This document shows, one piece after another, positions 1 through 16,737 of a DNA stretch of 64,000 bases; within the stretch, counting starts at the first letter, position 1, and each line of letters opens with the position of its first letter. Below the pieces are notes generated by a model. That model had not been told where the DNA came from, did no database searches, and saw only the letters and a list, made by a program, of their open reading frames with translations. The stretch is from Styela clava (taxonomy: Eukaryota > Chordata > Ascidiacea > Stolidobranchia > Styelidae). The stretch lies in assembly GCF_964204865.1 (NCBI RefSeq), contig NC_135252.1, positions 24,945,383 through 25,009,382 of the forward strand. The letters are read 5' to 3'. A program made the translations under genes and the position numbers.

Positions 1-205
1 TTGCGAGTGGTGAGATTTATGTCTGACAATTAGGAGCGGATTTCTATCTTTATTTTTTGTGGTTAGTTTGACTTATTGGGTAAAATTATGAAATAATGAA
101 AGACCTTTTTTGAGTGTATATGCCAGAGGTTGGAACGAATTGAAAATATATTCATTAAAACACAAAAGCACCCTGAAAATTTAGTATTGTTTAACAAAAG
201 AAGTC

Positions 206-227
206 TGGAGATGCCGGGCATCGATCC

Positions 228-262
<35 letters not shown>

Positions 263-278
263 TATGAGCTACATCCCC
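206..278 (-). tRNA. tRNA-Ala (TGC)
   Basis: 73-nt cloverleaf decoding GCA. Acceptor GGGGATG pairs with CATCTCC and keeps the G3-U70 wobble that is the alanine identity element. D stem GCTC/GAGC, anticodon stem CGCGC/GCGCG, loop TTTGCAT, T stem CCGGG/CCCGG. The T loop is ATCGATG, so base 54 is A instead of the near-universal T; this holds in every Ala copy of the array. A TTTT Pol III terminator lies a few bases past the 3' end. All stems pair in this copy. Confidence 0.93.
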
Positions 279-287
279 CATGCGACT

Positions 288-339
288 GTCGGTTTCGAAC
301 CAACGCTATCGAAATGACTGGTGCCTTAGACCAGCGCCT
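288..339 (-). pseudogene. Relic half tRNA-Leu (AAG loop)
   Basis: Starts at the end of the D arm (AGGCG), keeps the anticodon arm CTGGT/ACCAG with AAG in the loop (base 32 is C), the variable arm and a T arm in which GTTGG pairs with CCGAC. The acceptor stem and most of the D arm are missing and no T-run terminator follows. Ten versions of this relic occur in the array, always between Leu(TAG) and Ala(TGC). Confidence 0.85.
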
Positions 340-447
340 AAAAACGGAATTTGGAATTTTTCATCAAACATTATTAGTTTTCGGGATTTTTCTATTTGAA
401 ATATTATATTACAAGTCTTCTCGTGGTAACACATTTTTAAAAAAAAC

Positions 448-529
448 TGGCAGCGGTGGGATTCGAACCCACGCCATTGAAATGACTGGTGCCTAAAACC
501 AGCGCCTTAGACCGCTCGGCCACGCTACC
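448..529 (-). tRNA. tRNA-Leu (TAG)
   Basis: 82-nt class II tRNA decoding CUA. Acceptor GGTAGCG/CGCTGCC, A box TGGCCGAGCGG, anticodon stem CTGGT/ACCAG with loop TTTAGGC, variable arm with a 3-bp CAT/ATG stem, T stem GTGGG/CCCAC, B box GGTTCGAATCC. All stems pair, and a run of eight T follows the 3' end. It is one of only two Leu(TAG) copies in the window (with 13842) whose T stem is fully Watson-Crick. Confidence 0.95.
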
Positions 530-553
530 CTCCATATGTCAGCGTTAATTTAT

Positions 554-585
554 ATTCTATTTTCATCAACTTATGCAAATAGAAT
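554..585 (-). promoter_or_regulatory. Upstream inverted repeat with octamer motif (Leu-TAG)
   Basis: Begins about 25 bases upstream of the tRNA 5' end. Nine-base arms ATTCTATTT/AAATAGAAT enclose an exact octamer ATTTGCAT (573-580), and a second interleaved pair GTTGATG/CATCAAC overlaps it. The same block precedes the other complete Leu(TAG) genes. Octamers of this kind serve as distal elements in snRNA and some tRNA promoters in animals; a role here is inferred only from position and conservation. Confidence 0.5.
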
Positions 586-838
586 AATATATATGCATAC
601 TACGTTGTATAGATGAACCTTAAGCTTAGCAGTGCGAGTGGAGGGATTATTGTTTTACAATTGAGAGCGGATTCATATCTTTAGTTTTTTTATGGTTATT
701 TTGACTTATTGGTTAAAATTATAGGTCAATGAAAGACTTTTTCTTAGTGTATATGCGAGAGGTTGGAACGAATTGAACATATTTTAATTCAAACACAAAA
801 GCACGCTGGAAATTTATAATTGTTTAACAAAAGTAATC

Positions 839-911
839 TGGAGATGCCGGGCATCGATCCCGGTACCTTGCGCATGCTAAGCGCGTGCTCTACCATATGA
901 GCTACATCCCC
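839..911 (-). tRNA. tRNA-Ala (AGC), weakened
   Basis: 73-nt Ala tRNA decoding GCU, loop TTAGCAT. G3-U70 is present. G26 is A and base 43 is A, which leaves a C27-A43 mismatch at the top of the anticodon stem. A TTTT terminator follows. May be less stable than the clean AGC copies. Confidence 0.85.
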
Positions 912-1012
912 GATGCGACTATGTTTTTCATCAAACCTTATTAGTTTTTAGGATTTTTTTATTTGAATTAATATATTACAAGTTATCGTGGTATCAAAGT
1001 TCGAGCAAAAAT

Positions 1013-1048
1013 TGGCAGCGGTGGGATTCGAACCCACGCCATCGAAAT
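1013..1048 (-). pseudogene. tRNA-Leu 3' stub at deletion junction
   Basis: Only the 3' third of a Leu tRNA remains (acceptor strand, T arm, part of the variable arm). It then joins directly to the AT-rich spacer that normally follows Ala(AGC). The same junction recurs at 1898-1933, so the deleted unit was itself duplicated. Confidence 0.9.
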
Positions 1049-1160
1049 TCATGAAAGACTTTTTCTTAGTGTATATGCGAGAGGTTGGAACGAATTGAAC
1101 ATATTTTAATTCAAACACAAAAGCACGCTGGAAATTTATAATTGTTTAACAAAAGTAATC

Positions 1161-1182
1161 TGGAGATGCCGGGCATCGATCC

Positions 1183-1217
<35 letters not shown>

Positions 1218-1233
1218 TATGAGCTACATCCCC
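1161..1233 (-). tRNA. tRNA-Ala (AGC)
   Basis: Clean copy: acceptor GGGGATG/CATCTCC with G3-U70, anticodon stem CGCGC/GCGCG, loop TTAGCAT, T loop ATCGATG. Adenine 34 would normally be edited to inosine, allowing GCU, GCC and GCA decoding. TTTT lies six bases downstream. Confidence 0.93.
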
Positions 1234-1334
1234 GATGCGACTATGTTTTTCATCAAACCTTATTAGCTTTTAGGATTTTTTTATTTGAATTAATATATTA
1301 CAAGTTATCGTGGTATCAAAGTTCGAGCAAAAAT

Positions 1335-1416
1335 TGGCAGCGGTGGGATTCGAACCCACGCCATCGAAATGACTGGTGCCTTAAACCAGCGCCTTAGACC
1401 GCTCGGCCACGCTACC
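1335..1416 (-). tRNA. tRNA-Leu (AAG)
   Basis: 82-nt class II tRNA decoding CUU (and CUC if A34 becomes inosine). Anticodon stem CTGGT/ACCAG, loop TTAAGGC, variable arm CAT-TTCG-ATG, T stem GTGGG/CCCAC, B box GGTTCGAATCC. TTTTT follows directly. The body closely resembles vertebrate Leu(AAG) as I recall it. Confidence 0.95.
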
Positions 1417-1440
1417 CTGCATATATCAGCGTTGATGTAT

Positions 1441-1472
1441 ATTCTATTTTCATCAACATATGCAAATAGAAT
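1441..1472 (-). promoter_or_regulatory. Upstream inverted repeat with octamer motif (Leu-AAG)
   Basis: Same block as at 554, with arms ATTCTATTT/AAATAGAAT and octamer ATTTGCAT (1460-1467), but followed by ATG where the Leu(TAG) version has AAG. It lies 25 bases upstream of the tRNA 5' end and is repeated before the other Leu(AAG) genes, with single-base changes in a few. Confidence 0.5.
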
Positions 1473-1723
1473 AATATGTATGCATAGTACGTTGTATAGA
1501 TGAACCTTAAGCTTAGCATTGCGAGTGGTGAGATTTATGTCTGACAATTAGGAGCGGATTTCTATCTTTATTTTTTGTGGTTAGTTTGACTTATTGGGTA
1601 AAATTATGAAATAATGAAAGACCTTTTTTGAGTGTATATGCCAGAGGTTGGAACGAATTGAAAATATATCCATTAAAACACAAAAGCACCCTGAAAATTT
1701 AGTATTGTTTAACAAAAGAAGTC

Positions 1724-1796
1724 TGGAGATGCCGGGCATCGATCCCGGTACCTCGCGCATGCAAAGCGCGAGCTCTATCATATGAGCTACATCCCC
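1724..1796 (-). tRNA. tRNA-Ala (TGC), D-loop variant
   Basis: D loop has GA instead of the conserved G18-G19, and base 26 is T. Loss of G19 would weaken D-loop/T-loop contact, so function is doubtful. The same two changes occur at 2609 and 4286. Its 5' flank is of the Ala(AGC) type, so this unit is a fusion. Confidence 0.75.
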
Positions 1797-1897
1797 GATG
1801 CGACTATGTTTTTCATCAAACCTTATTAGTTTTTAGGATTTTTTTATTTGAATTAATATATTACAAGTTATCGTGGTATCAAAGTTGGAGCAAAAAT

Positions 1898-1933
1898 TGG
1901 CAGCGGTGGGATTCGAACCCACGCCATCGAAAT
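1898..1933 (-). pseudogene. tRNA-Leu 3' stub at deletion junction
   Basis: Second copy of the stub at 1013 with the identical breakpoint. Together with the next Ala(AGC), Leu(AAG) and Ala(TGC) it belongs to a directly repeated 885-bp short unit. Confidence 0.9.
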
Positions 1934-2045
1934 TCATGAAAGACTTTTTCTTAGTGTATATGCGAGAGGTTGGAACGAATTGAACATATTTTAATTCAAA
2001 CACAAAAGCACGCTGGAAATTTATAATTGTTTAACAAAAGTAATC

Positions 2046-2067
2046 TGGAGATGCCGGGCATCGATCC

Positions 2068-2102
<35 letters not shown>

Positions 2103-2118
2103 TATGAGCTACATCCCC
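2046..2118 (-). tRNA. tRNA-Ala (AGC)
   Basis: Identical to the clean copy at 1161, with all stems paired and the TTTT terminator present. It lies 885 bp from that copy. Confidence 0.93.
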
Positions 2119-2219
2119 GATGCGACTATGTTTTTCATCAAACCTTATTAGCTTTTAGGATTTTTTTATTTGAATTAATATATTACAAGTTATCGTGGTA
2201 TCAAAGTTCGAGCAAAAAT

Positions 2220-2301
2220 TGGCAGCGGTGGGATTCGAACCCACGCCATCGAAATGACTGGTGCCTTAAACCAGCGCCTTAGACCGCTCGGCCACGCTAC
2301 C
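2220..2301 (-). tRNA. tRNA-Leu (AAG)
   Basis: Same sequence as at 1335, with full cloverleaf, TTTTT terminator and the inverted-repeat block upstream. Confidence 0.95.
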
Positions 2302-2608
2302 CTGCATATATCAGCGTTGATGTATATTCTATTTTCATCAACATATGCAAATAGAATAATATGTATGCATAGTACGTTGTATAGATGAACCTTAAGCTTA
2401 GCATTGCGAGTGGTGAGATTTATGTCTGACAATTAGGAGCGGATTTCTATCTTTATTTTTTGTGGTTAGTTTGACTTATTGGGTAAAATTATGAAATAAT
2501 GAAAGACCTTTTTTGAGTGTATATGCCAGAGGTTGGAACGAATTGAAAATATATCCATTAAAACACAAAAGCACCCTGAAAATTTAGTATTGTTTAACAA
2601 AAGAAGTC

Positions 2609-2681
2609 TGGAGATGCCGGGCATCGATCCCGGTACCTCGCGCATGCAAAGCGCGAGCTCTATCATATGAGCTACATCCCC
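2609..2681 (-). tRNA. tRNA-Ala (TGC), D-loop variant
   Basis: Carries G19 to A and G26 to T like 1724. Here the usual relic Leu follows upstream, so this unit is not the fusion type. Possibly non-functional. Confidence 0.75.
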
Positions 2682-2690
2682 CATGCGACT

Positions 2691-2742
2691 GTCGGTTTCG
2701 AACCAACGCTATCGAAATGACTGGTGCCTTAGACCAGCGCCT
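2691..2742 (-). pseudogene. Relic half tRNA-Leu (AAG loop)
   Basis: Same extent as the relic at 288, with the anticodon arm and self-consistent T arm preserved and the 5' third absent. Confidence 0.85.
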
Positions 2743-2850
2743 AAAAACGGAATTTGGAATTTTTCATCAAACATTATTAGTTTTCGGGATTTTTCTATTT
2801 GAAATATTATATTACAAGTCTTTTCGTGGTAACAAATTTCGAACAAAAAC

Positions 2851-2932
2851 TGGCAGCGGTGGGATTCGAACCAACGCCATTGAAATGACTGGTGCCTAAA
2901 ACCAGCGCCTTAGACCGCTCGGCCACGCTACC
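2851..2932 (-). tRNA. tRNA-Leu (TAG), T-stem mismatch
   Basis: Full length with TAG anticodon and TTTTT terminator. The T stem is GTTGG against CCCAC, giving a T51-C63 mismatch. The B box itself (GGTTCGAATCC) is intact, so transcription may persist while the product folds less well. Four other Leu(TAG) copies share the change. Confidence 0.85.
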
Positions 2933-3241
2933 CTCCACATGTCAGCGTTGATGTATATTCTATTTTCATCAACTTATGCAAATAGAATAATATATATGCA
3001 TACTACGTTGTATTGATGAACCTTAAGCTTAGCAGTGCGAGTGGAGGAATTAATGTCTTACAATTAAGAGCGGATTCATATCTTTAGTTTTTTATGGTTA
3101 TTTTGACTTATTGGTTAAAATTATAGATCAATGAAAGACTTTTTCTTGGTGTATATGCGAGAGGTTGGAACGAATTGAACATATTTTAATTCAAACACAA
3201 AAGCACCCTGGAAATTTTCTTATTGTTTAACAAAAGTAATC

Positions 3242-3314
3242 TGGAGATGCCGGGCATCGATCCCGGTACCTCGCGCATGCTAAGCGCGCGCCCTACCATA
3301 TGAGCTACATCCCA
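3242..3314 (-). tRNA. tRNA-Ala (AGC), lacking G1
   Basis: Full body, but base 1 is T because the copy abuts the 430-bp spacer, so the first acceptor pair is lost (T1-C72). D stem base A23 is G, still able to pair with U. Mature function is uncertain since the native 5' leader is replaced by the spacer. Confidence 0.75.
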
Positions 3315-3744
3315 TCGTGTAGGTAGCGTAGCCCGGCGTTCTGAAACATCTGAAATTTCGTTGACATGTGCAGAGTTTGTTGATATTGTTCCCTAGACTC
3401 CACGCGTGCCGAGACTGCGCTTCCTTTTAACTGTCCGCTTCCAAGTGTCTAGTAGTTTAAAACGTGTGAAATCCTGGTTGTGTATTCTAATCTTCAGTAA
3501 ACGATAACGGTAAAATCGATTCAAAGTTTCAGTGAAAGTAAGTATGACATCAAAAGACTTAACTTATTTTGTGGAACAGGCTTATCGTTGCAGTTGAGAT
3601 GCGTGTTGCGATAGATTCTCCAGTCGAGGGGCAATCAAGTAAACGCCCCAAAAATCGAAACGCGTTATCACCTCACTCGAAAAATCAACGGTCGACGCGA
3701 CCCGGACCATGATGTCGCTATAAATTAGAAGACTTATGCAATCC
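3315..3744 (-). repeat. 430-bp spacer of long unit, copy 1
   Basis: Not found in the short units. On the minus strand it joins an Ala tRNA 5' half (3745-3795) to a complete Ala(AGC) body. All four internal copies are exactly 430 bp and near identical. The last array copy carries a diverged version leading into flanking DNA, so I infer that the spacer is captured array-edge sequence. No coding frame or RNA family recognised. Confidence 0.8.
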
Positions 3745-3795
3745 AGGTACCTCGCGCACGCTAATCGCGCGCTCTACCATATGAGCTACATCCCC
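3745..3795 (-). pseudogene. tRNA-Ala 5' half
   Basis: Keeps acceptor 5' strand, D arm and an anticodon arm with changed stem bases (C31 to A; loop TTAGCGT), then departs from the tRNA in the T arm and runs into the 430-bp spacer. Its upstream flank is the normal Ala(AGC) leader, so a promoter-proximal half was stranded by a recombination break. Confidence 0.85.
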
Positions 3796-3896
3796 GATGC
3801 GACTATGTTTTTCATCAAACCTTATTAGTTTTTAGGATTTTTTTATTTGAATTAATATATTACAAATTATAGTGGTATCAAAGTTCGAGCAAAAAC

Positions 3897-3978
3897 TGGC
3901 AGCGGTGGGATTCGAACCCACGCCATCGAAATGACTGGTGCCTTAAACCAGCGCCTTAGACCGCTCGGCCACGCTACC
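3897..3978 (-). tRNA. tRNA-Leu (AAG)
   Basis: Body as at 1335; immediate 3' flank GTTTTTGC provides the terminator. Confidence 0.95.
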
Positions 3979-4285
3979 CTGCATATATCAGCGTTGATGT
4001 ATATTCTATTTTCATCAACATATGCAAATAGAATAATATGTATGCATAGTACGTTGTATAGATGAACCTTAAGCTTAGCATTGCGAGTGGTGAGATTTAT
4101 GTCTGACAATTAGGAGCGGATTTCTATCTTTATTTTTTGTGGTTAGTTTGACTTATTGGGTAAAATTATGAAATAATGAAAGACCTTTTTTGAGTGTATA
4201 TGCCAGAGGTTGGAACGAATTGAAAATATATCCATTAAAACACAAAAGCATCCTGAAAATTTAGTATTGTTTAACAAAAGAAGTC

Positions 4286-4358
4286 TGGAGATGCCGGGCA
4301 TCGATCCCGGTACCTCGCGCATGCAAAGCGCGAGCTCTATCATATGAGCTACATCCCC
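4286..4358 (-). tRNA. tRNA-Ala (TGC), D-loop variant
   Basis: Third copy with G19 to A and G26 to T, in a unit almost identical to the preceding one. Confidence 0.75.
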
Positions 4359-4367
4359 CATGCGACT

Positions 4368-4419
4368 GTCGGTTTCGAACCAACGCTATCGAAATGACTG
4401 GTGCCTTAGACCAGCGCCT
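4368..4419 (-). pseudogene. Relic half tRNA-Leu (AAG loop)
   Basis: Matches the relic at 288. Confidence 0.85.
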
Positions 4420-4527
4420 AAAAACGAAATTTGGAATTTTTCATCAAACATTATTAGTTTTCGGGATTTTTCTATTTGAAATATTATATTACAAGTCTTT
4501 TCGTGGTAACAAATTTCGAACAAAAAC

Positions 4528-4609
4528 TGGCAGCGGTGGGATTCGAACCAACGCCATTGAAATGACTGGTGCCTAAAACCAGCGCCTTAGACCGCTCGGC
4601 CACGCTACC
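4528..4609 (-). tRNA. tRNA-Leu (TAG), T-stem mismatch
   Basis: Same T51-C63 mismatch as 2851; otherwise complete with terminator and upstream block. Confidence 0.85.
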
Positions 4610-4918
4610 CTCCACATGTCAGCGTTGATGTATATTCTATTTTCATCAACTTATGCAAATAGAATAATATATATGCATACTACGTTGTATTGATGAACCT
4701 TAAGCTTAGCAGTGCGAGTGGAGGAATTAATGTCTTACAATTAAGAGCGGATTCATATCTTTAGTTTTTTATGGTTATTTTGACTTATTGGTTAAAATTA
4801 TAGATCAATGAAAGACTTTTTCTTGGTGTATATGCGAGAGGTTGGAACGAATTGAACATATTTTAATTCAAACACAAAAGCACCCTGGAAATTTTCTTAT
4901 TGTTTAACAAAAGTAATC

Positions 4919-4991
4919 TGGAGATGCCGGGCATCGATCCCGGTACCTCGCGCATGCTAAGCGCGCGCCCTACCATATGAGCTACATCCCA
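4919..4991 (-). tRNA. tRNA-Ala (AGC), lacking G1
   Basis: As 3242: T at base 1 and G at base 23, next to the second 430-bp spacer. Confidence 0.75.
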
Positions 4992-5421
4992 TCGTGTAGG
5001 TAGCGTAGCCCGGCGTTCTGAAACATCTGAAATTTCGTTGACATGTGCAGAGTTTGTTGATATTGTTCCCTAGACTCCACGCGTGCCGAGACTGCGCTTC
5101 CTTTTAACTGTCCGCTTCCAAGTGTCTAGTAGTTTAAAACGTGTGAAATCCTGGTTGTGTATTCTAATCTTCAGTAAACGATAACGGTAAAATCGATTCA
5201 AAGTTTCAGTGAAAGTAAGTATGACATCAAAAGACTTAACTTATTTTGTGGAACAGGCTTATCGTTGCAGTTGAGATGCGTGTTGCGATAGATTCTCCAG
5301 TCGAGGGGCAATCAAGTAAACGCCCCAAAAATCGAAACGCGTTATCACCTCACTCGAACAATCAACGGTCGACGCGACCCGGACCATGATGTCGCTATAA
5401 ATTAGAAGACTTATGCAATCC
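4992..5421 (-). repeat. 430-bp spacer of long unit, copy 2
   Basis: Same length and nearly the same sequence as the spacer at 3315. At one site it reads CGAACAATC where the first copy reads CGAAAAATC; the later copies share the CGAACAATC form. Confidence 0.8.
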
Positions 5422-5472
5422 AGGTACCTCGCGCACGCTAATCGCGCGCTCTACCATATGAGCTACATCCCC
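5422..5472 (-). pseudogene. tRNA-Ala 5' half
   Basis: Same stranded half as at 3745. Confidence 0.85.
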
Positions 5473-5573
5473 GATGCGACTATGTTTTTCATCAAACCTT
5501 ATTAGTTTTTAGGATTTTTTTATTTGAATTAATATATTACAAGTTATAGTGGTATCAAAGTTCGAGCCAAAAT

Positions 5574-5655
5574 TGGCAGCGATGGGATTCGAACCCACGC
5601 CATCGAAATGACTGGTGCCTTAAACCAGCGCCTTAGACCGCTCGGCCACGCTACC
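5574..5655 (-). tRNA. tRNA-Leu (AAG)
   Basis: Complete; base 65 is T so the first T-stem pair is a G-U wobble. The terminator is TTTT after AA. Confidence 0.92.
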
Positions 5656-5963
5656 CTGCATATATCAGCGTTGATGTATATTCTATTTTCATCAACATAT
5701 GCAAATAGAATAATATGTATGCATAGTACGTTGTATAGATGAACCTTAAGCTTAGCATTGCGAGTGGTGAGATTTATGTCTGGCAATTAGGAGCGGATTT
5801 CTATCTTTATTTTTTTGTGGTTATTTTGACTTATTGGGTAAAATTATAAAATAATGAAAGACCTTTTTTGAGTGTATATGCCAGAGGTTGGAACGAATTG
5901 AAAATATATCCATTAAAACACAAAAGCACCCTGAAAATTTAGTATTGTTTAACAAAAGAAGTC

Positions 5964-5985
5964 TGGAGATGCCGGGCATCGATCC

Positions 5986-6020
<35 letters not shown>

Positions 6021-6036
6021 TATGAGCTACATCCCC
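5964..6036 (-). tRNA. tRNA-Ala (TGC)
   Basis: Clean copy like 206, with all stems paired and TTTT downstream. Confidence 0.93.
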
Positions 6037-6045
6037 CATGCGACT

Positions 6046-6083
6046 GTCGGTTTCGAACCAACGCTATCGAAATGACTGGTGCG
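6046..6083 (-). pseudogene. Truncated relic tRNA-Leu
   Basis: The relic is broken inside the anticodon stem and joined straight to the 3' flank of the next Leu(AAG), giving a 534-bp short unit that lacks Leu(TAG) and Ala(AGC). Confidence 0.85.
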
Positions 6084-6107
6084 TGGTATCAAAGTTCGAG
6101 CAAAAAT

Positions 6108-6189
6108 TGGCAGCGGTGGGATTCGAACCCACGCCATCGAAATGACTGGTGCCTTGAACCAGCGCCTTAGACCGCTCGGCCACGCTACC
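6108..6189 (-). tRNA. tRNA-Leu (AAG), C33 variant
   Basis: Anticodon loop reads TCAAGGC, so the almost invariant T33 before the anticodon is C. All stems are intact and TTTTT follows. C33 may impair the U-turn. Confidence 0.85.
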
Positions 6190-6497
6190 CTGCATATATC
6201 AGCGTTGATGTATATTCTATTTTCATCAACATATGCAAATAGAATAATATGTATGCATAGTACGTTGTATAGATGAACCTTAAGCTTAGCATTGCGAGTG
6301 GTGAGATTTATGTCTGACAATTAGGAGCGGATTTCTATCTTTTTTTTTTTGTGGTTAGTTTGACTTATTGGGTAAAATTATGAAATAATGAAAGACCTTT
6401 TTTGAGTGTATATGCCAGAGGTTGGAACGAATTGAAAATATATCCATTAAAACACAAGAGCACCCTGAAAATTTAGTATTGTTTAACAAAAGAAGTC

Positions 6498-6519
6498 TGG
6501 AGATGCCGGGCATCGATCA

Positions 6520-6554
<35 letters not shown>

Positions 6555-6570
6555 TATGAGCTACATCCCC
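6498..6570 (-). tRNA. tRNA-Ala (TGC), T-stem mismatch
   Basis: T stem CCGTG against CCCGG gives T52-C62, and the B box is altered further. Likely weak or dead. Confidence 0.75.
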
Positions 6571-6579
6571 CATGCGACT

Positions 6580-6631
6580 GTCGGTTTCGAACCAACGCTA
6601 TCGAAATGACTGGTGCCTTAGACCAGCACCT
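6580..6631 (-). pseudogene. Relic half tRNA-Leu (AAG loop)
   Basis: As 288, with one base changed just before the anticodon stem. Confidence 0.85.
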
Positions 6632-9785: not shown

Positions 9786-9820
<35 letters not shown>

Positions 9821-10019: not shown

Positions 10020-10327
10020 CTGCATATATCAGCGTTGATGTATATTCTATTTTCATCAACATATGCAAATAGAATAATATGTATGCATAGTACGTTGTAT
10101 AGATGAACCTTAAGCTTAGCATTGCGAGTGGTGAGATTTATGTCTGACAATTAGGAGCGGATTTCTATCTTTATTTTTTTGTGGTTAGTTTGACTTATTG
10201 GGTAAAATTATGAAATAATGAAAGACCTTTTTTGAGTGTATATGCCAGAGGTTGGAACGAATTGAAAATATGTCCATTAAAACACAAAAGCACCCTGAAA
10301 ATTTAGTATTGTTTAACAAAAGAAGTC

Positions 10328-10400
10328 TGGAGATGCCGGGCATCGATCCCGGTACCTCGCGCTTGCAAAGCGCGCGCTCTACCATATGAGCTACATCCCC
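10328..10400 (-). tRNA. tRNA-Ala (TGC)
   Basis: Anticodon loop ends in A (TTTGCAA), base 38 changed; stems intact. Confidence 0.9.
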
Positions 10401-10409
10401 CATGCGACT

Positions 10410-10461
10410 GTCGGTTTCGAACCAACGCTATCGAAATGACTGGTGCCTTAGACCAGCGCCT
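10410..10461 (-). pseudogene. Relic half tRNA-Leu (AAG loop)
   Basis: As 288. Confidence 0.85.
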
Positions 10462-10569
10462 AAAAACGGAATTTGGAATTTTTCATCAAACATTATTAGT
10501 TTTCGGGATTTTTCTATTTGAAATATTATATTACAAGTCTTCTCGTGGTAACAAATTTCGAACAAAAAC

Positions 10570-10651
10570 TGGCAGCGGTGGGATTCGAACCAACGCCATT
10601 GAAATGACTGGTGCCTAAAACCAGCGCCTTAGACCGCTCGGCCACGCTACC
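10570..10651 (-). tRNA. tRNA-Leu (TAG), T-stem mismatch
   Basis: T51-C63 as in 2851; otherwise complete. Confidence 0.85.
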
Positions 10652-10959
10652 CTCCACATATCAGCGTTAATGTATATTCTATTTTCATCAACTTATGCAA
10701 ATAGAATAATATATATGCATACTACGTTGTATTGATGAACCTTAAGCTTAGCAGTGCGAGTGGAGGAATTAATGTCTTACAATTAAGAGCGGATTCATAT
10801 CTTTAGTTTTTTATGGTTATTTTGACTTATTGGTTAAAATTATAGATCAATGAAAGACTTTTTCTTGGTGTATATGCGAGAGGTTGGAACAAATTGAACA
10901 TATTTTAATTCAAACACAAAAGCACCCTGGAAATTTATTATTGTTTAACAAAAGTAATC

Positions 10960-10981
10960 TGGAGATGCCGGGCATCGATCC

Positions 10982-11016
<35 letters not shown>

Positions 11017-11032
11017 TATGAGCTACATCCCA
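10960..11032 (-). tRNA. tRNA-Ala (AGC), lacking G1
   Basis: As 8327, before the fourth spacer. Confidence 0.75.
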
Positions 11033-11462
11033 TCGTGCAGGTAGCGTAGCCCGGCGTTCTGAAACATCTGAAATTTCGTTGACATGTGCAGAGTTTGTTG
11101 ATATTGTTCCCTAGACTCCACGCGTGCCGAGACTGCGCTTCCTTTTAACTGTCCGTTTCCAAGTGTCTAGTAGTTTAAAACGTGTGAAATCTTGGTTGTG
11201 TATTCTAATCTTCAGTAAACGATAACGGTAAAATCGATTCAAAGTTTCAGTGAAAGTAAGTATGACATCAAAAGACTTAACTTATTTTGTGGAACAGGCT
11301 TATCGTTGCAGTTGAGATGCGTGTTGCGATAGATTCTCCAGTCGAGGGGCAATCAAGTAAACGCCCCAAAAATCGAAACGCGTTATCACCTCACTCGAAC
11401 AATCAACGGTCGACGCGACCCGGACCATGATGTCGCTATAAATTAGAAGACTTATGCAATCC
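11033..11462 (-). repeat. 430-bp spacer of long unit, copy 4
   Basis: Fourth 430-bp copy, close to copy 3 in sequence. Confidence 0.8.
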
Positions 11463-11513
11463 AGGTACCTCGCGCACGCTAATCGCGCGCTCTACCATAT
11501 GAGCTACATCCCC
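11463..11513 (-). pseudogene. tRNA-Ala 5' half
   Basis: As 3745. Confidence 0.85.
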
Positions 11514-11614
11514 GATGCGACTATGTTTTTCATCAAACCTTATTAGTTTTTAGGATTTTTTTATTTGAATTAATATATTACAAGTTATAGTGGTATCAAA
11601 GTTCGAGCCAAAAT

Positions 11615-11696
11615 TGGCAGCGGTGGGATTCGAACCCACGCCATCGAAATGACTGGTGCCTTAAACCAGCGCCTTAGACCGCTCGGCCACGCTACC
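11615..11696 (-). tRNA. tRNA-Leu (AAG)
   Basis: Complete, TTTT terminator, flanks as at 8982. Confidence 0.94.
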
Positions 11697-12004
11697 CTGC
11701 ATATATCAGCGTTGATGTATATTCTTTTTTCATCAACATATGCAAATAGAATAATATGTATGCATAGTACGTTGTATAGATGAACCTTAAGCTTAGCATT
11801 GCGAGTGGTGAGATTTATGTCTGACAATTAGGAGCGGATTTCTATCTTTATTTTTTTGTGGTTATTTTGACTTATTGGGTAAAATTATAAAATAATGAAA
11901 GACCTTTTTTGAGTGTATATGCCAGAGGTTGGAACGAATTGAAAATATATCCATTAAAACACAAAAGCACCTTGAAAATTTAGTATTGTTTAACAAAAGA
12001 AGTC

Positions 12005-12026
12005 TGGAGATGCCGGGCATCGATCC

Positions 12027-12061
<35 letters not shown>

Positions 12062-12077
12062 TATGAGCTACATCCCC
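12005..12077 (-). tRNA. tRNA-Ala (AGC) in Ala(TGC) context
   Basis: The body and 5' leader are of the AGC type while the 3' flank is that of Ala(TGC). The crossover therefore lies within or next to the gene and swapped the anticodon relative to its terminator flank. All stems pair. Confidence 0.92.
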
Positions 12078-12178
12078 GATGCGACTATGTTTTTCATCAA
12101 ACCTTATTAGTTTTTAGGATTTTTTTATTTGAATTAATATATTACAAGTTATCGTGGTATCAAAGTTCGAGCAAAAAT

Positions 12179-12260
12179 TGGCAGCGGTGGGATTCGAACC
12201 CACGCCATCAAAATGACTGGTGCCTTAAACCAGCGCCTTAGACCGCTCGGCCACGCTACC
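12179..12260 (-). tRNA. tRNA-Leu (AAG)
   Basis: Variable-arm loop is TTTG in place of TTCG; all stems intact. An extra AT dinucleotide sits in the 5' flank. Confidence 0.94.
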
Positions 12261-12570
12261 CTGCATATATATCAGCGTTGATGTATATTCTATTTTCATC
12301 AACATATGCAAATAGAATAATATGTATGCATAGTACGTTGTATAGATGAACCTTAAGCTTAGCATTGCGAGTGGTGAGATTTATGTCTGACAATTAGGAG
12401 CGGATTTCTATCTTTATTTTTTTGTGGTTAGTTTGACTTATTGGGTAAAATTATGAAATAATGAAAGACCTTTTTTGAGTGTATATGCCAGAGGTTGGAA
12501 CGAATTGAAAATATATCCATTAAAACACAAAAGCACCCTGAAAATTTAGTATTGTTTAACAAAAGAAGTC

Positions 12571-12643
12571 TGGAGATGCCGGGCATCGATCCCGGTACCT
12601 CGCGCATGCAAAGCGCGTGCTCTACCATATGAGCTACATCCCC
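12571..12643 (-). tRNA. tRNA-Ala (TGC)
   Basis: Base 26 is A; stems pair. Confidence 0.9.
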
Positions 12644-12652
12644 CATGCGACT

Positions 12653-12726
12653 GTCGGTTTCGAACCCACGCCATTGAAATGACTGGTGCCTAAAACCAGC
12701 GCCTTAGACCGCTCGGCCACGCTACC
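12653..12726 (-). pseudogene. tRNA-Leu (TAG) with lost acceptor
   Basis: 5' acceptor strand, D arm and anticodon arm are intact, but the 3' end has been replaced by the relic-type end (CCGAC and beyond). The acceptor cannot pair and the T stem has a G51-G63 clash. No T-run terminator. Confidence 0.85.
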
Positions 12727-13035
12727 CTCCATGTGTCAGTGTTAATGTATATTCTATTTTCATCAACTTATGCAAATAGAATAATATATATGCATACTAC
12801 GTTGTATAGATGAACCTTAAGCTTAGCAGTGCGAGTGGAGGGATTATTGTCTTTCAATTAAGAGCGGATTCATATCTTTAGTTTTTTTATGGTTATTTTG
12901 ACTTATTGGTTAAAATTATAGATCAATGAAAGACTTTTTCTTAGTGTATATGCGAGAGGTTGGAACGAATTGAACATATTTTAATTCAAACACAAAAGCA
13001 CGCTGGAAATTTATAATTGTTTAACAGAAGTAATC

Positions 13036-13057
13036 TGGAGATGCCGGGCATCGATCC

Positions 13058-13092
<35 letters not shown>

Positions 13093-13108
13093 TATGAGCT
13101 ACATCCCC
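13036..13108 (-). tRNA. tRNA-Ala (AGC), terminator altered
   Basis: Body clean, but the usual TTTT downstream is TTCT, so readthrough into the spacer is expected if transcribed. Confidence 0.9.
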
Positions 13109-13209
13109 GATGCGACTATGTTTTTCATCAAACCTTATTAGTTTTTAGGATTTTTTTATTTGAATTAATATATTACAAGTTATCGTTGTATCAAAGTTCG
13201 AGCAAAAAT

Positions 13210-13291
13210 TGGCAGCGGTGGGATTCGAACCCACGCCATCGAAATGACTGGTGCCTTAAACCAGCGCCTTAGACCGCTCGGCCACGCTACC
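13210..13291 (-). tRNA. tRNA-Leu (AAG)
   Basis: Complete; TTTTT terminator. The upstream block has one altered base (ATCCTATTT arm on the plus strand). Confidence 0.94.
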
Positions 13292-13599
13292 CTGCATATA
13301 TCAGCGTTGATGTATATCCTATTTTCATCAACATATGCAAATAGAATAATATGTCTGCATAGTACGTTGTATAGATGAACCTTAAGCTTAGCATTGCGAG
13401 TGGTGAGCTTTATGTCTGACAATTAGGAGCGGATTTCTATCTTTATTTTTTTGTGGTTATTTTGACTTATTGGGTAAAATTATAAAATAATGAAAGACCT
13501 TTTTTGAGTGTATATGCCAGAGGTTGGAACGAATTGAAAATATATCCATTAAAACACAAAAGCACCCTGAAAATTTAGTATTGTTTAACAAAAGAAGTC

Positions 13600-13621
13600 T
13601 GGAGATGCCGGGCATCGATCC

Positions 13622-13656
<35 letters not shown>

Positions 13657-13672
13657 TATGAGCTACATCCCC
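13600..13672 (-). tRNA. tRNA-Ala (TGC)
   Basis: Clean copy like 206. Confidence 0.93.
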
Positions 13673-13681
13673 CATGCGACT

Positions 13682-13733
13682 GTCGGTTTCGAACCAACGC
13701 TATCGAAATGACTGGTGCCTTAGACCAGCGCCT
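13682..13733 (-). pseudogene. Relic half tRNA-Leu (AAG loop)
   Basis: As 288. Confidence 0.85.
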
Positions 13734-13841
13734 AAAAACGGAATTTGGAATTTTTCATCAAACATTATTAGTTTTCGGGATTTTTCAATTTGAAATATTA
13801 TATTACAAGTCTTCTCGTGGTAACAAATTTTGAACAAAAAC

Positions 13842-13923
13842 TGGCAGCGGTGGGAATCGAACCCACGCCATTGAAATGACTGGTGCCTAAAACCAGCGCC
13901 TTAGACCGCTCGGCCACGCTACC
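13842..13923 (-). tRNA. tRNA-Leu (TAG)
   Basis: T stem fully paired; T loop is TTCGATT (base 59 changed). TTTTT terminator present. With 448, one of the two best Leu(TAG) candidates. Confidence 0.93.
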
Positions 13924-14232
13924 CTCCATATGTCAGCGTTAATGTATATTCTATTTTCATCAGCTTATGCAAATAGAATAATATATATGCATACTACGTT
14001 GTATAGATGAACCTTAAGCTTAGCAGTGCGAGTGGAGGTATTATTGTCTTACAATTAAGAGCGGATTCATATCTTTAGTTTTTTTATGGTTATTTTGACT
14101 TATTGGTTAAAATTATAGATCAATGAAAGACTTTTTCTTAGTGTATATGCGAGAGGTTGGAACGAATTGAACATATTTTAATTCAAACACAAAAGCACGC
14201 TGGAAATTTATAATTGTTTAACAAAAGTAATC

Positions 14233-14305
14233 TGGAGATGCCGGGCATCGATCCCGGTACCTCGCGCATGCTAAGCGCGTGCTCTACCATATGAGCTACA
14301 TCCCC
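14233..14305 (-). tRNA. tRNA-Ala (AGC)
   Basis: Base 26 is A; stems pair; TTTT downstream. Confidence 0.91.
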
Positions 14306-14406
14306 GATGCGACTATGTTTTTCATCAAACCTTATTAGTTTTTAGGATTTTTTTATTTGAATTAATATATTACAAGTTATCGTGGTATCAAAGTTCGAGC
14401 AAAAAT

Positions 14407-14488
14407 TGGCAGCGGTGGGATTCGAACCCACGCCATCGAAATGACTGGTGCCTTAAACCAGCGCCTTAGACCGCTCGGCCACGCTACC
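14407..14488 (-). tRNA. tRNA-Leu (AAG)
   Basis: Clean copy. Confidence 0.95.
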
Positions 14489-14797
14489 CTGCATATATCA
14501 GCGTTGATGTATATTCTATTTTCATCAACATATGCAAATAGAATAATATGTATGCATAGTACGTTGTATAGATGAACCTTAAGCTTAGCATTGCGAGTGG
14601 TGAGATTTATGTCTGACAATTATGAGCGGATTTCTATCTTTATTTTTTTGTGGTTAGTTTGATTTATTGGGTAAAATTATGAAATAATGAAAGACCTTTT
14701 TTTGAGTGTATATGCCAGAGGTTGGAACGAATTGAAAATATATCCATTAAAACACAAAAGCACCCTGAAAATTTAGTATTGTTTAACAAAAGAAGTC

Positions 14798-14870
14798 TGG
14801 AGATGCCGGGCATCGATCCCGGTACCTCGTGCATGCAAAGCGCGCGCTCTACCATATGAGCTACATCCCC
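14798..14870 (-). tRNA. tRNA-Ala (TGC), anticodon-stem mismatch
   Basis: C29-A41 mismatch as in the AGC copies at 7130 and 15469, suggesting exchange between Ala isoacceptors. Confidence 0.82.
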
Positions 14871-14879
14871 CATGCGACT

Positions 14880-14931
14880 GTCGGTTTCGAACCAACGCTA
14901 TCGAAATGATTGGTGCCTTAGACCAGCGCCT
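14880..14931 (-). pseudogene. Relic half tRNA-Leu (AAG loop)
   Basis: As 288 with one substitution beside the anticodon stem. It is joined by a short bridge to a second Ala(TGC). Confidence 0.85.
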
Positions 14932-15004
14932 AAAAACGGAATTTGGAATTTTTCATCAAACCGATTTCGGGAAGAAAATTTAGTATTGTTCAACAAAAGA
15001 AGTC

Positions 15005-15077
15005 TGGAGATGCCGGGCATCGATCCCGGTACCTCGCGCATGCAAATCGCGCGCTCTGCCATATGAGCTACATCCCC
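15005..15077 (-). tRNA. tRNA-Ala (TGC), degenerate
   Basis: An extra Ala(TGC) only 207 bp from the previous one. C31 is A (mismatch closing the anticodon loop) and the D loop reads GGCA. TTTT terminator kept. Confidence 0.75.
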
Positions 15078-15086
15078 CATGCGACC

Positions 15087-15160
15087 GTCGGTTTCGAACC
15101 CACGCCATTGAAATGACTGGTGCCTAAAACCAGCGCCTTAGACCGCTCGGCCACGCTACC
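15087..15160 (-). pseudogene. tRNA-Leu (TAG) with lost acceptor
   Basis: Same chimera as at 12653: intact 5' part, relic-type 3' end, no acceptor pairing. Confidence 0.85.
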
Positions 15161-15468
15161 CTCCATATGTCAGCGTTAATGTATATTCTATTTTCATCAA
15201 CTTATGCAAATAGAATAATATATATGCATACTACGTTGTATTGATGAACCTTAAGCTTAGCAGTGCGAGTGGAGGAATTAATGTCTTACAATTAAGAGCG
15301 GATTCATATCTTCAGTTTTTTATGGTTATTTTGACTTATTGGTTAAAATTATAGATCAATGAAAGACTTTTTCTTGGTGTATATGCGAGAGGTTGGAACG
15401 AATTGAACATATTTTAATTCAAACACAAAAGCACGCTGGAAATTTGTAATTGTTTAACAAAAGTAATC

Positions 15469-15541
15469 TGGAGATGCCGGGCATCGATCCCGGTACCTCG
15501 TGCATGCTAAGCGCGCGCTCTACCATATGAGCTACATCCCC
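15469..15541 (-). tRNA. tRNA-Ala (AGC), anticodon-stem mismatch
   Basis: C29-A41 mismatch; otherwise complete. Confidence 0.82.
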
Positions 15542-15642
15542 GATGCGACTATGTTTTTCATCAAACCTTATTAGTTTTTAGGATTTTTTTATTTGAATTA
15601 ATATATTACAAGTTATCGTGGTATCAAAGTTCGAGCAAAGAT

Positions 15643-15724
15643 TGGCAGCGGTGGGATTCGAACCCACGCCATCGAAATGACTGGTGCCTTAAACCAGCGC
15701 CTTAGACCGCTCGGCCACGCTACC
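15643..15724 (-). tRNA. tRNA-Leu (AAG), weak terminator
   Basis: Body clean, but the downstream T run is interrupted (TCTTTG), leaving only three T in a row. Confidence 0.92.
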
Positions 15725-16032
15725 CTGCATATATCAGCGTTGATGTATATTCTATTTTCATCAACATATGCAAATAGAATAATATGTATGCATAGTACGT
15801 TGTATAGATGAACCTTAAGCTTAGCATTGCGAGTGGTGAGATTTATGTCTGACAATTAGGAGCGGATTTCTATCTTTATTTTTTTGTGGTTAGTTTGACT
15901 TATTGGGTAAAATTATGAAATAATAAAAGACCTTTTTTGAGTGTATATGCCAGAGGTTGGAACGAATTGAAAATATATCCATTAAAACACAAAAGCACCC
16001 TGAAAATTTAGTATTGTTTAACAAAAGAAGTC

Positions 16033-16054
16033 TGGAGATGCCGGGCATCGATCC

Positions 16055-16089
<35 letters not shown>

Positions 16090-16105
16090 TATGAGCTACA
16101 TCCCC
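16033..16105 (-). tRNA. tRNA-Ala (TGC)
   Basis: Clean copy like 206. Confidence 0.93.
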
Positions 16106-16114
16106 CATGCGACT

Positions 16115-16166
16115 GTCGGTTTCGAACCAACGCTATCGAAATGACTGGTGCCTTAGACCAGCGCCT
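16115..16166 (-). pseudogene. Relic half tRNA-Leu (AAG loop)
   Basis: As 288. Confidence 0.85.
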
Positions 16167-16274
16167 AAAAACGGAATTTGGAATTTTTCATCAAACATTA
16201 TTAGTTTTCGGGATTTTTCTATTTGAAATATTATATTACAAGTCTTCTCGTGGTAACAAATTTCGAACAAAAAC

Positions 16275-16356
16275 TGGCAGCGGTGGGATTCGAACCAACG
16301 CCATTGAAATGACTGGTGCCTAAAACCAGAGCCTTAGACCGCTCGGCCACGCTATC
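16275..16356 (-). tRNA. tRNA-Leu (TAG), several defects
   Basis: T51-C63 mismatch, G2 to A in the acceptor (mismatch with C71) and G26 to T. Probably a decayed edge copy. Confidence 0.75.
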
Positions 16357-16664
16357 CTCCATATGTCAGCGTTAATGTATATTATATTTTCATCAACTTA
16401 TGCAAATAGAATAATATATATGCATACTACGTTGTATTGATGAACCTCAAGCGTAGTAGTGCGAGTGGAGGAATTAATGTCTTACAATTAAGAGCGGATT
16501 CATATCTTTAGTTTTTTATGGTTATTTTGACTTATTGGTTAAAATTATAGATCAATGAAAGACTTTTTCTTGGTGTATATGCGAGAGGTTGGAACGAATT
16601 GAACATATTTTAATTCAAACACAAAAGCACCCTGGAAATTTATTATTGTTTAACAAAAGTAATC

Positions 16665-16686
16665 TGGAGATGCCGGGCATCGATCC

Positions 16687-16721
<35 letters not shown>

Positions 16722-16737
16722 TATGAGCTACATCCCA
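16665..16737 (-). tRNA. tRNA-Ala (AGC), terminal copy
   Basis: Last tRNA at the right edge (5'-most in transcription). Base 1 is T as in the other spacer-linked copies; the rest pairs. Confidence 0.78.

Follow-up and report, generated by a model that had tools for sequence, protein, structure and literature searches.

A 107-kb tandem array of alanine and leucine tRNA genes in the ascidian Styela clava

An array of alanine and leucine tRNA genes ends in the 64,000-nucleotide stretch of the Styela clava genome analysed here (the window; contig NC_135252.1, positions 24,945,383 to 25,009,382). It has a regular four-gene anatomy over 107 kb, diverges on two timescales, contains duplicated blocks, and predominates in the assembly's exact count of these genes. 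We read it, with a probability of about three in four, as a nuclear tandem array of RNA polymerase III tRNA genes that grew from a duplicated Leu-Ala pair, in which single copies are dispensable and which provides a bulk or conditional supply.

Both ARAGORN and Rfam called all 49 full-length genes at window positions 206-16737 (Table 1), comprising 14 Ala-TGC, 14 Ala-AGC, 13 Leu-AAG, and 8 Leu-TAG genes, the last being under-represented. All are on the minus strand. Their Rfam RF00005 scores range from 38.6 to 60.5 bits and exceed the gathering cut-off of 29 bits, all 49 conform to the cloverleaf of the covariance model, and no RF00005 match was detected elsewhere in the 64-kb window. The window begins within the array. 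When two gene sequences were used as BLAST queries, ~90 kb more of the array was found to the left, giving a span of C3:24,855,467-24,962,118 (106,652 bp) with 317 full-length genes. ARAGORN counted 316 genes over this span, and Rfam, applied to the 110 kb adjoining the window on the left, gave 274 matches, of which the 150 listed are all tRNA. Across the array, 315 of the 317 genes share one strand; the two plus-strand genes are both Leu-AAG and lie left of the window. The first-pass annotation had reported 49 full-length copies of a four-gene repeat, all on one strand, at positions 1..16737. The genes are indeed there, but these coordinates truncate the array, 49 is a number of genes and not of four-gene units, and the uniform orientation holds for the window only.

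Table 1. Features of the window. Every tRNA gene row is based on ARAGORN and Rfam.
Feature	Position	Strand	Remark
Right-hand end of Ala/Leu array	206..16737	-	49 of 317 full-length genes; continues left to C3:24,855,467
tRNA-Ala TGC	206..278	-	
tRNA-Leu TAG	448..529	-	
tRNA-Ala AGC	839..911	-	
tRNA-Ala AGC	1161..1233	-	
tRNA-Leu AAG	1335..1416	-	
tRNA-Ala TGC	1724..1796	-	
tRNA-Ala AGC	2046..2118	-	
tRNA-Leu AAG	2220..2301	-	
tRNA-Ala TGC	2609..2681	-	
tRNA-Leu TAG	2851..2932	-	
tRNA-Ala AGC	3242..3314	-	
tRNA-Leu AAG	3897..3978	-	
tRNA-Ala TGC	4286..4358	-	
tRNA-Leu TAG	4528..4609	-	
tRNA-Ala AGC	4919..4991	-	
tRNA-Leu AAG	5574..5655	-	
tRNA-Ala TGC	5964..6036	-	
tRNA-Leu AAG	6108..6189	-	
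tRNA-Ala TGC	6498..6570	-	
tRNA-Leu TAG	6740..6821	-	
tRNA-Ala AGC	7130..7202	-	
tRNA-Leu AAG	7304..7385	-	
tRNA-Ala TGC	7694..7766	-	
tRNA-Leu TAG	7936..8017	-	
tRNA-Ala AGC	8327..8399	-	
tRNA-Leu AAG	8982..9063	-	
tRNA-Ala TGC	9372..9444	-	
tRNA-Ala AGC	9764..9836	-	
tRNA-Leu AAG	9938..10019	-	Lowest Rfam score among the 49 (38.6 bits)
tRNA-Ala TGC	10328..10400	-	
tRNA-Leu TAG	10570..10651	-	
tRNA-Ala AGC	10960..11032	-	
tRNA-Leu AAG	11615..11696	-	
tRNA-Ala AGC	12005..12077	-	
tRNA-Leu AAG	12179..12260	-	
tRNA-Ala TGC	12571..12643	-	
tRNA-Ala AGC	13036..13108	-	No T-run in 30 nt 3'
tRNA-Leu AAG	13210..13291	-	
tRNA-Ala TGC	13600..13672	-	
tRNA-Leu TAG	13842..13923	-	
tRNA-Ala AGC	14233..14305	-	
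tRNA-Leu AAG	14407..14488	-	
tRNA-Ala TGC	14798..14870	-	
tRNA-Ala TGC	15005..15077	-	
tRNA-Ala AGC	15469..15541	-	
tRNA-Leu AAG	15643..15724	-	No T-run in 30 nt 3'
tRNA-Ala TGC	16033..16105	-	
tRNA-Leu TAG	16275..16356	-	
tRNA-Ala AGC	16665..16737	-	Last gene of the array
Example regular unit, 1,196 bp	6498..7693	-	ARAGORN, BLAST; Ala-TGC 6498-6570, Leu piece 6580-6631, Leu-TAG 6740-6821, Ala-AGC 7130-7202, Leu-AAG 7304-7385
Leu gene piece (23-74)	288..339	-	~10 nt 5' of Ala-TGC
Leu pieces of the same class	2691-2742, 4368-4419, 6580-6631, 7776-7827, 9454-9505, 10410-10461, 13682-13733, 14880-14931, 16115-16166	-	Each ~10 nt 5' of Ala-TGC
Shorter Leu piece (38-74), same class	6046-6082	-	~10 nt 5' of Ala-TGC
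Longer Leu piece (1-74)	12653..12726, 15087-15160	-	~10 nt 5' of Ala-TGC; expected following Leu-TAG gene absent at both
Ala gene piece (1-55)	3741..3795, 5418-5472, 8826-8880, 11459-11513	-	In long (655-bp) Ala-AGC to Leu-AAG intervals
Leu gene 3' piece (47-82)	1013..1048, 1898-1933	-	
Decayed unit relic outside array	27342..27928	.	Leu piece 27342-27450, Ala piece 27490-27521
Ala-like gene in relic	27799-27872	+	88% identical; called by ARAGORN (its 50th), not by Rfam

The higher-order unit of two amino acids and four anticodons that had been proposed for this DNA was borne out, as the order TGC-TAG-AGC-AAG recurs in full: the array as a whole has 39 such runs, 6 of them within the window. 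The regular unit is 1,197 bp long and is a duplicated Leu-Ala half-unit. A Leu gene fragment, most often covering positions 23-74, is also part of the unit, ~10 nt on the 5' side of Ala-TGC; over the whole array, a Leu piece or gene is found 5' of 81 of the 83 genes of the Ala-TGC lineage. When the half-units were compared, the spacers were identical at 271 of 308 and 83 of 101 positions, and the genes differed at 1 of 73 and 2 of 82. Since the half-unit duplication, genes have changed at 3 of 155 sites and spacers at 55 of 409 (Fisher p = 9e-6). Gene conversion limited to the genes, rather than selection, could explain part of this long-term conservation. The Ala genes of the whole array comprise 80 with AGC, 76 with TGC plus 2 that are one base short, 3 with CGC, and 2 Ala bodies with TGT, and the Leu genes 83 with TAG and 71 with AAG. 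The idea of matched dosage of the Ala and CUN-Leu isoacceptors thus holds approximately but not exactly (80/76 for Ala-AGC/TGC, 83/71 for Leu-TAG/AAG), least of all for Leu-TAG in the window (8/49). The array does not match a tRNA-derived SINE, in which a tRNA part is followed by a body and tail and inserted at dispersed sites: its genes are full-length and in tandem register, and neighbouring units have their spacers in common.

Every one of the 161 full-length Ala genes carries the alanine identity pair, G3:U70; the 2 remaining genes of the 163, being one base short, were not judged. A run of at least four T lies within 60 nt 3' of 302 of the 317 array genes, and 47 of the 49 window genes have a T-run within 30 nt. 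With homopolymers excluded, 23 of 67 sites in the 20 nt 5' of genes were variable, compared with 83 of 406 far from genes (p = 0.017); this excess, in one modest test among several, weakly hints at germline transcription. An excess in the 3' flanks was gone once homopolymers were excluded (7/45 compared with 83/406 far from genes). The observed/expected ratio of CpG was 1.21 in array spacers and 0.97 and 1.01 in the flanks, with no depletion, and CpG transitions were not in excess in genes (9/30 compared with 16/64) or spacers (9/58 compared with 41/304). These results indicate that heavy germline methylation has left no footprint, although this evidence is indirect and concerns the germline only. 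The genes may be transcribed, and their tRNAs may be charged and contribute to the tRNA pool.

Within the array, 101 self-matches of at least 3 kb at 95% identity or more were detected, the longest being 10.1 kb (98.48%) and the next 9,784 bp (99.47%, offset 31.9 kb). One adjacent pair of 4,756-bp blocks is 99.96% identical. The end points of partial genes recur, and relics lie past both array edges. The copies have probably been turned over, and the units kept alike, by unequal exchange involving duplicated blocks of ~10 kb, in agreement with the block-wise sharing of sequence described at first pass. Among recent copies, diversity was 0.0131 in genes and 0.0159 in spacers, and values as low were obtained in 413 of 1198 circular shifts. 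Stem-breaking changes were, if anything, in excess, accounting for 49 of 85 distinct gene substitutions compared with 37.5 expected (38 of 70 compared with 30.2 on the set leaving out 38 genes), and at least one stem pair is broken in 109 of 315 array genes. Neither gene/spacer diversity nor stem-breaking substitutions revealed purifying selection among recent copies. As genes are about as variable as spacers and stem breaks are not depleted, single copies look dispensable.

The same observation also fits a mostly silent tDNA satellite, a repeat that grows and shrinks by unequal exchange, is packed in heterochromatin, and yields little tRNA, with the pool supplied by the few dispersed genes for Ala and Leu. 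We consider this quite possible, though short of an even chance. Dispersed Leu-AAG genes do exist (C3:10.29 Mb, C3:12.80 Mb, and C14:20.68 Mb); they match the array in the gene itself and not in the flanking sequence. There are also precedents: in zebrafish embryos, the clusters of chromosomes 4, 8, and 3 show near-complete CpG methylation (PMC11574265), and the Arabidopsis SYY cluster is silent in most tissues (PMC12308677). However, terminators have been retained, genes have been protected relative to spacers since the half-unit duplication, and the CpG data show no footprint of heavy germline methylation.

Of the assembly's exact cores, 146 of 152 for Leu and 126 of 140 for Ala lie in the array. 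Other families are arrayed likewise (Ala/Ser, Lys, Cys/Trp, Gly-type, and elongator-Met-type), and the 8 initiator-Met-type matches are dispersed. With some isotypes probed and 63 of 32,363 tRNA candidates scored, at least six array regions were found, and the genome appears to carry several tRNA arrays for different amino acids. The Thr-reading anticodon TGT occurs on Ala bodies in both the Ala/Leu array (two genes) and an array on C9 (one), and 8 of 15 exact Trp-type cores have an anticodon that would read UGA. It is conceivable, but rather doubtful, that many elongator families, and not the initiator, moved to arrays of their own on different chromosomes, each with tens to hundreds of genes, in an Entamoeba-like layout within a large chromosomal genome, and that redundancy makes such arrays nurseries for recoded tRNAs.

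Selection of copy number for a burst of protein making, such as an Ala/Leu-rich secreted product or the egg, seems unlikely. The joint rise of two amino acids and four anticodons and the dominance of the array in the exact gene count would suit it, and silkworm silk-gland tRNA-Ala is a parallel. In Arabidopsis, deletion of SYY altered a Ser/Tyr/Pro-rich protein in root-tip cells (PMC12308677). By contrast, the arrays for other isotypes argue for a genome-wide habit rather than a need for Ala and Leu. An assembly artefact, with haplotypes or repeats falsely stacked, is very improbable: near-identical blocks would favor it, but neither the window nor the 110 kb comprising array and left flank contains an N, the best 30 of the 101 self-matches by length nearly all differ at 0.4-2% of sites, providing markers for accurate long reads, and the breakpoints, inverted genes, and relics give the array an individual structure.

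Under the preferred reading of a tandem array that supplies tRNA, a Leu-Ala gene pair would have been duplicated, and its halves would have diverged at wobble base 34 (Ala-TGC/Leu-TAG and Ala-AGC/Leu-AAG), producing the four-gene unit, with a Leu fragment coming to sit directly 5' of Ala-TGC. Unequal crossing-over and gene conversion may then have multiplied the unit to its present number, accompanied by block duplications, deletions broken inside tRNA genes, and inversion of two genes. The genes look arranged for individual transcription and not as an operon, from an internal promoter (assumed from the tRNA sequence) to a T-run terminator. The array would add bulk or conditional Ala and CUN-Leu tRNA to that of a few dispersed copies, so that a single copy would be dispensable and accumulate mutations up to its replacement by exchange; at a given moment, a considerable share of the array may be silent. 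Such a gap-free array is a natural archive of the evolution of redundant RNA genes, covering long-term gene constraint, relaxed selection on single copies, and breakpoints within genes. Array-specific variants exist, for example Ala G18A and Leu G60T. Variant genes are built-in tags, which makes supply of the tRNA pool testable against mostly passive repeats. The tRNA gene counts of an assembly cannot simply be equated with tRNA supply.

Mixed-isotype tandem tRNA arrays are already a known organisation, of which the Ala/Leu array, with its order recurring 39 times and nearly all its genes co-oriented, is a further example. The 3.18-kb tDNA repeat of Xenopus laevis is tandem and present in high copy, each unit containing eight tRNA genes that represent several isotypes. 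The Ala/Leu array resembles it as a high-copy, multi-isotype tandem unit in an animal, but its unit covers two amino acids. The arrangement had been called unusual; its kind is not new, with precedents in Entamoeba (PMC2652664) and the Arabidopsis Ser/Tyr cluster (PMC12308677). Units of several tRNA genes are repeated in tandem in Entamoeba, and in E. histolytica nearly all tRNA genes lie in 25 array units that take up >10% of the genome, short tandem repeats separating the genes (PMC2652664). Multi-tRNA units and separate arrays per isotype are common to both genomes, whereas in S. clava the initiator-Met-type genes and a few of those for Leu and Ala are dispersed, and the arrays observed account for a very small fraction of the 376.6 Mb. 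The DNA-methylated SYY cluster, whose expression is known, includes 54 clustered Tyr genes (PMC12308677). It too is a mixed-isotype unit grown by duplication, with dispersed as well as clustered copies and with variants and pseudogenes inside; by contrast, the Ala/Leu array is larger, with 317 genes, and shows no CpG footprint. Among metazoans, Nematostella, clawed frog, and zebrafish have mostly mixed pairs of neighbouring tRNA genes, and clusters of at least 50 tRNA genes occur in Nematostella and teleosts; according to the same 2010 paper, tandem tRNA repeats had by then been reported from Entamoeba only (PMC2888827). In early zebrafish embryos, tRNA level is uncorrelated with gene copy number (PMC11574265). 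The Ala/Leu array shares with these clusters the hundreds of genes or more and the mixed neighbours, pairs in Danio and Xenopus being nearly all parallel; a four-gene unit with a Leu piece is not among the features described in the available parts of these reports, which concern copy numbers, pairings, and methylation (PMC11574265, PMC2888827). The human 1q23.3 VNTR is likewise a tRNA-containing tandem repeat, and its copy number changes (PMC4041453). Its 7.3-kb GC-rich units, numbering 9-43 per allele, are CTCF-bound and consist of tRNA genes for <6% of their length (PMC4041453), whereas the units of the Ala/Leu array are 1.2 kb long, AT-rich, and packed with genes.

The first-pass annotation had given 49 full-length copies for an Ala/Leu tRNA repeat at the left of the window, and as a number of genes this was borne out by both ARAGORN and Rfam (RF00005), each of which placed 49 genes within window 206-16737. 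ARAGORN predicted 50 tRNA genes in the whole window, 49 of them on the minus strand within 206-16737; the fiftieth, an Ala-like gene at window 27799 on the plus strand, was absent from the RF00005 matches, every one of which fell inside 206-16737. The anticodons in the window were Ala-TGC (14), Ala-AGC (14), Leu-AAG (13), and Leu-TAG (8). Because no tRNA was detected by Rfam in the other 47 kb of the window, the density of tRNA genes is not due to chance. An additional 110 kb was then read leftward of the window and searched by BLAST with two gene sequences as queries, and the left edge of the window proved to fall inside the array. The array spans 106,652 bp (contig C3:24,855,467-24,962,118) and contains 317 full-length genes (163 Ala and 154 Leu), of which 315 are on the minus strand and two, both Leu-AAG, on the plus strand. 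ARAGORN counted 316 genes over the same span. In the 110 kb read beyond the left edge, Rfam returned 274 matches, of which the best 150 were all tRNA. The assembly comprises 376.6 Mb in 379 contigs, and the window corresponds to C3:24,945,383-25,009,382; C3 has a total length of 25.58 Mb, so the array ends ~0.6 Mb short of the contig end.

Read with ascending coordinates, the repeat unit has the order Ala-TGC, Leu-TAG, Ala-AGC, Leu-AAG, and the complete four-gene order occurs 39 times across the array and six times within the window. For the diversity comparison, 19 of these 39 regular gene orders were kept, namely those in which the next gene was another Ala-TGC and the length was 1,190-1,205 bp; the commonest size was 1,197 bp (15/19). 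The unit consists of two paralogous halves. When the halves were compared with gap columns (1 and 68) excluded from the spacers, 271 of 308 positions were identical between the 3' end of the Ala gene and the next Leu gene, and 83 of 101 in the Leu-to-Ala spacer. Between the Ala genes of the two halves one of 73 sites differs, the wobble base 34, and between the Leu genes two of 82. Of the 83 Ala-TGC-lineage genes, 81 have a Leu piece or gene ~10 nt to their 5' side, in most cases the fragment 23-74, but just 4 of 80 Ala-AGC genes do.

We next compared change in genes and spacers on two timescales. Since the half-unit duplication, 3 of 155 gene sites have changed versus 55 of 409 spacer sites (Fisher p = 9e-6), indicating that the genes were long constrained or were converted together. 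Among recent copies, genes had a diversity of 0.0131 versus 0.0159 for spacers. When the gene mask was shifted in a circle, equally low diversity arose in 413 of 1198 shifts, so protection of genes was not seen among these copies. When stem pairs were scored in the 315 of 317 genes with full ends, 206 genes had no broken pair and 109 had at least one. Leaving aside base 34 of the anticodon and a single fixed Leu difference, 49 of 85 distinct gene substitutions were pair-breaking versus 37.5 expected under the same spectrum. We read this as redundancy, in which individual copies are free to decay until replaced by exchange. The selection pattern among recent copies would also fit an array that is mostly a silent satellite of tRNA genes.

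Exchange is suggested by self-matches within the array. There are 101 of at least 3 kb at 95% identity or more, including 10,129 bp at 98.48%, 9,784 bp at 99.47% (offset 31.9 kb), and 6,618 bp at 99.41% (offset 20.0 kb), and one duplicated pair of 4,756 bp at 99.96% is adjacent. The end points of partial genes are recurrent across the array. In two places in the window the expected Leu-TAG gene is missing and a Leu piece 1-74 lies directly 5' of Ala-TGC, as expected if a Leu gene had recombined with the Leu fragment. Beyond each end of the array there is a decayed relic of the unit.

Coordinates of partial genes, relics, anticodon variants, and other tRNA arrays or loci
Feature	Location	Details
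Leu piece 1-74	window 12653-12726	directly 5' of Ala-TGC; expected Leu-TAG missing
Leu piece 1-74	window 15087-15160	directly 5' of Ala-TGC; expected Leu-TAG missing
Decayed relic of unit	C3:24,847,374-24,847,812	outside left end
Decayed relic of unit	window 27342-27928	outside right end
Ala body, TGT	L019:5421-5493 = C3:24,940,803	left of window; G3:U70 kept
Ala body, TGT	L019:7813-7885 = C3:24,943,195	left of window; G3:U70 kept
Ala-type body, TGT	L027:251	C9 array
Lys-TTT array	C2:15.88-15.94 Mb	steps of at least ~316 bp; 14 genes within the 8 kb read
Mixed Ala/Ser array	C9:21.065-21.131 Mb (L024-L028, L032)	94 genes in 56 kb read, two gaps between
Cys array with Trp-type genes	C10:6,854,753-7,030,448	
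Initiator-Met-type solo loci	C3, C5, C9, C13, C14, C19	
C, assembly contigs; L, stretches of them that were read

Features bearing on expression were also examined. A run of at least four T within 60 nt was found for 302 of 317 array genes, and every full-length Ala gene (161 of 161) had G3:U70, the stem and identity scoring covering 315 of the 317 genes. The CpG observed/expected ratio was 1.21 in the spacers and 0.97 and 1.01 in the flanks, and CpG transitions were not in excess in genes (9/30 versus 16/64, in the untrimmed subset that leaves out 38 of 317) or in spacers (9/58 versus 41/304). Since spacer CpG was not depleted and CpG transitions were not in excess, the array shows no footprint, in CpG content or transitions, of heavy methylation in the germline. 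With homopolymers excluded, 23 of 67 sites were variable in the 20 nt on the 5' side of genes versus 83 of 406 at a distance from genes (p = 0.017); at most, this hints weakly at germline transcription. Both the CpG and the flank counts were made on spacers whose length was within 3 bp of the usual one. The corresponding 3' flank showed no excess variation once homopolymers were excluded (7/45 variable); homopolymers accounted for the apparent 3' excess, which was dropped as a sign of transcription.

Two Gln and three Arg anticodons called by ARAGORN in the array were not accepted: the anticodon loops had slipped, and a reading by position gives Ala-TGC and Ala-CGC. Two Ala-type bodies with the Thr-type TGT anticodon were upheld. 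G3:U70 is recognized by AlaRS. Because both TGT genes keep this pair, they could, if expressed, lead to Ala insertion at Thr ACA codons. In eukaryotic genomes, shifts of anticodon from one isotype to another are known (PMC3923123). In the C10 Cys/Trp array, whose Trp-type genes include L030 171 and 5102, 8 of 15 Trp-type exact cores carry a TCA instead of a CCA anticodon, and such genes would be predicted to read UGA.

Most exact gene cores of the assembly lie inside the array, 146 of 152 for Leu and 126 of 140 for Ala. Outside it are dispersed Leu-AAG genes, which in the three read share the gene with the array but have different flanks, and small Ala/Leu clusters with other orientations at C3:21.30 Mb and C17:7.78 Mb. 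Putative Gly-type cores gave 281 matches with up to two mismatches, and the 100 listed were all at C3:23.49-23.67 Mb and C4:22.82-22.85 Mb. Putative Met-type cores gave 443 matches with up to three mismatches; among the 100 listed, 92 were at C4:22.665-22.697 Mb and of elongator type, and eight, of initiator type, were dispersed over six contigs and served as a non-array control. The Gly and Met labels, and the elongator and initiator types, are those that we take these cores to have. In the C9 array, Ala genes (TGC and CGC) lie on one strand with Ser-GCT beside them and Ser-CGA on the opposite strand, and Ala and Ser-GCT genes abut without a spacer in places.

Several other observations were made in the window and the assembly. 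The 18S rRNA core had 390 exact matches at many chromosomal places in both orientations, with C1, C2, C3, C5, and C6 among the first 100 places listed, and COX1 had no match in the assembly. In several small contigs, a tRNA match was repeated every 44-46 kb. C154:12000-18999 (L031) contains seven adjacent tRNA genes, each with a CCA end, together with thymidylate- and thymidine-kinase-like frames (PHROGs); contigs of this type probably represent a circular, phage-like element that the assembly joined into concatemers, rather than host DNA. The array DNA itself matched one record of the phage collection, by a short tRNA-Ala match. A Pfam scan of 10 of the 19 window open frames of at least 110 aa gave one weak match, below the curated cut-off. 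A 133-bp tandem repeat occurs in two copies ~6.9 kb apart (window 55733-56945 and 62640-63861), with a shared start and nearly identical 123-aa frames. Window 25516-26197 is a 30/60/121-bp tandem repeat with ~150 codons partly open in both directions, and window 60795-61150 holds 3.5 copies of a 104-bp tandem repeat.

Judged from the DNA, the locus is best explained as a bona fide Pol III tRNA array that would have started from a Leu-Ala gene pair and whose copies would be turned over by unequal exchange, individual copies being dispensable. The silent alternative would leave the array contributing little to the tRNA pool, and on this supply the precedents, taken as analogies, point both ways. 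In early zebrafish embryos, tRNA levels are not predicted by copy number and methylation of the large clusters is nearly complete (PMC11574265). Most Arabidopsis tissues keep the Ser/Tyr (SYY) cluster silent, yet it is active in root-cap cells, where its deletion altered a transgenic protein (PMC12308677). A SINE origin was rejected, the genes being full-length and in tandem register. Among the open-licence papers listed, none was found on this array. Tandem and mixed tRNA arrays (PMC2652664, PMC2888827) and copy-number change inside tRNA repeats (PMC10701932, PMC4041453) are already known, and the array is therefore a further case of a known tRNA organisation.
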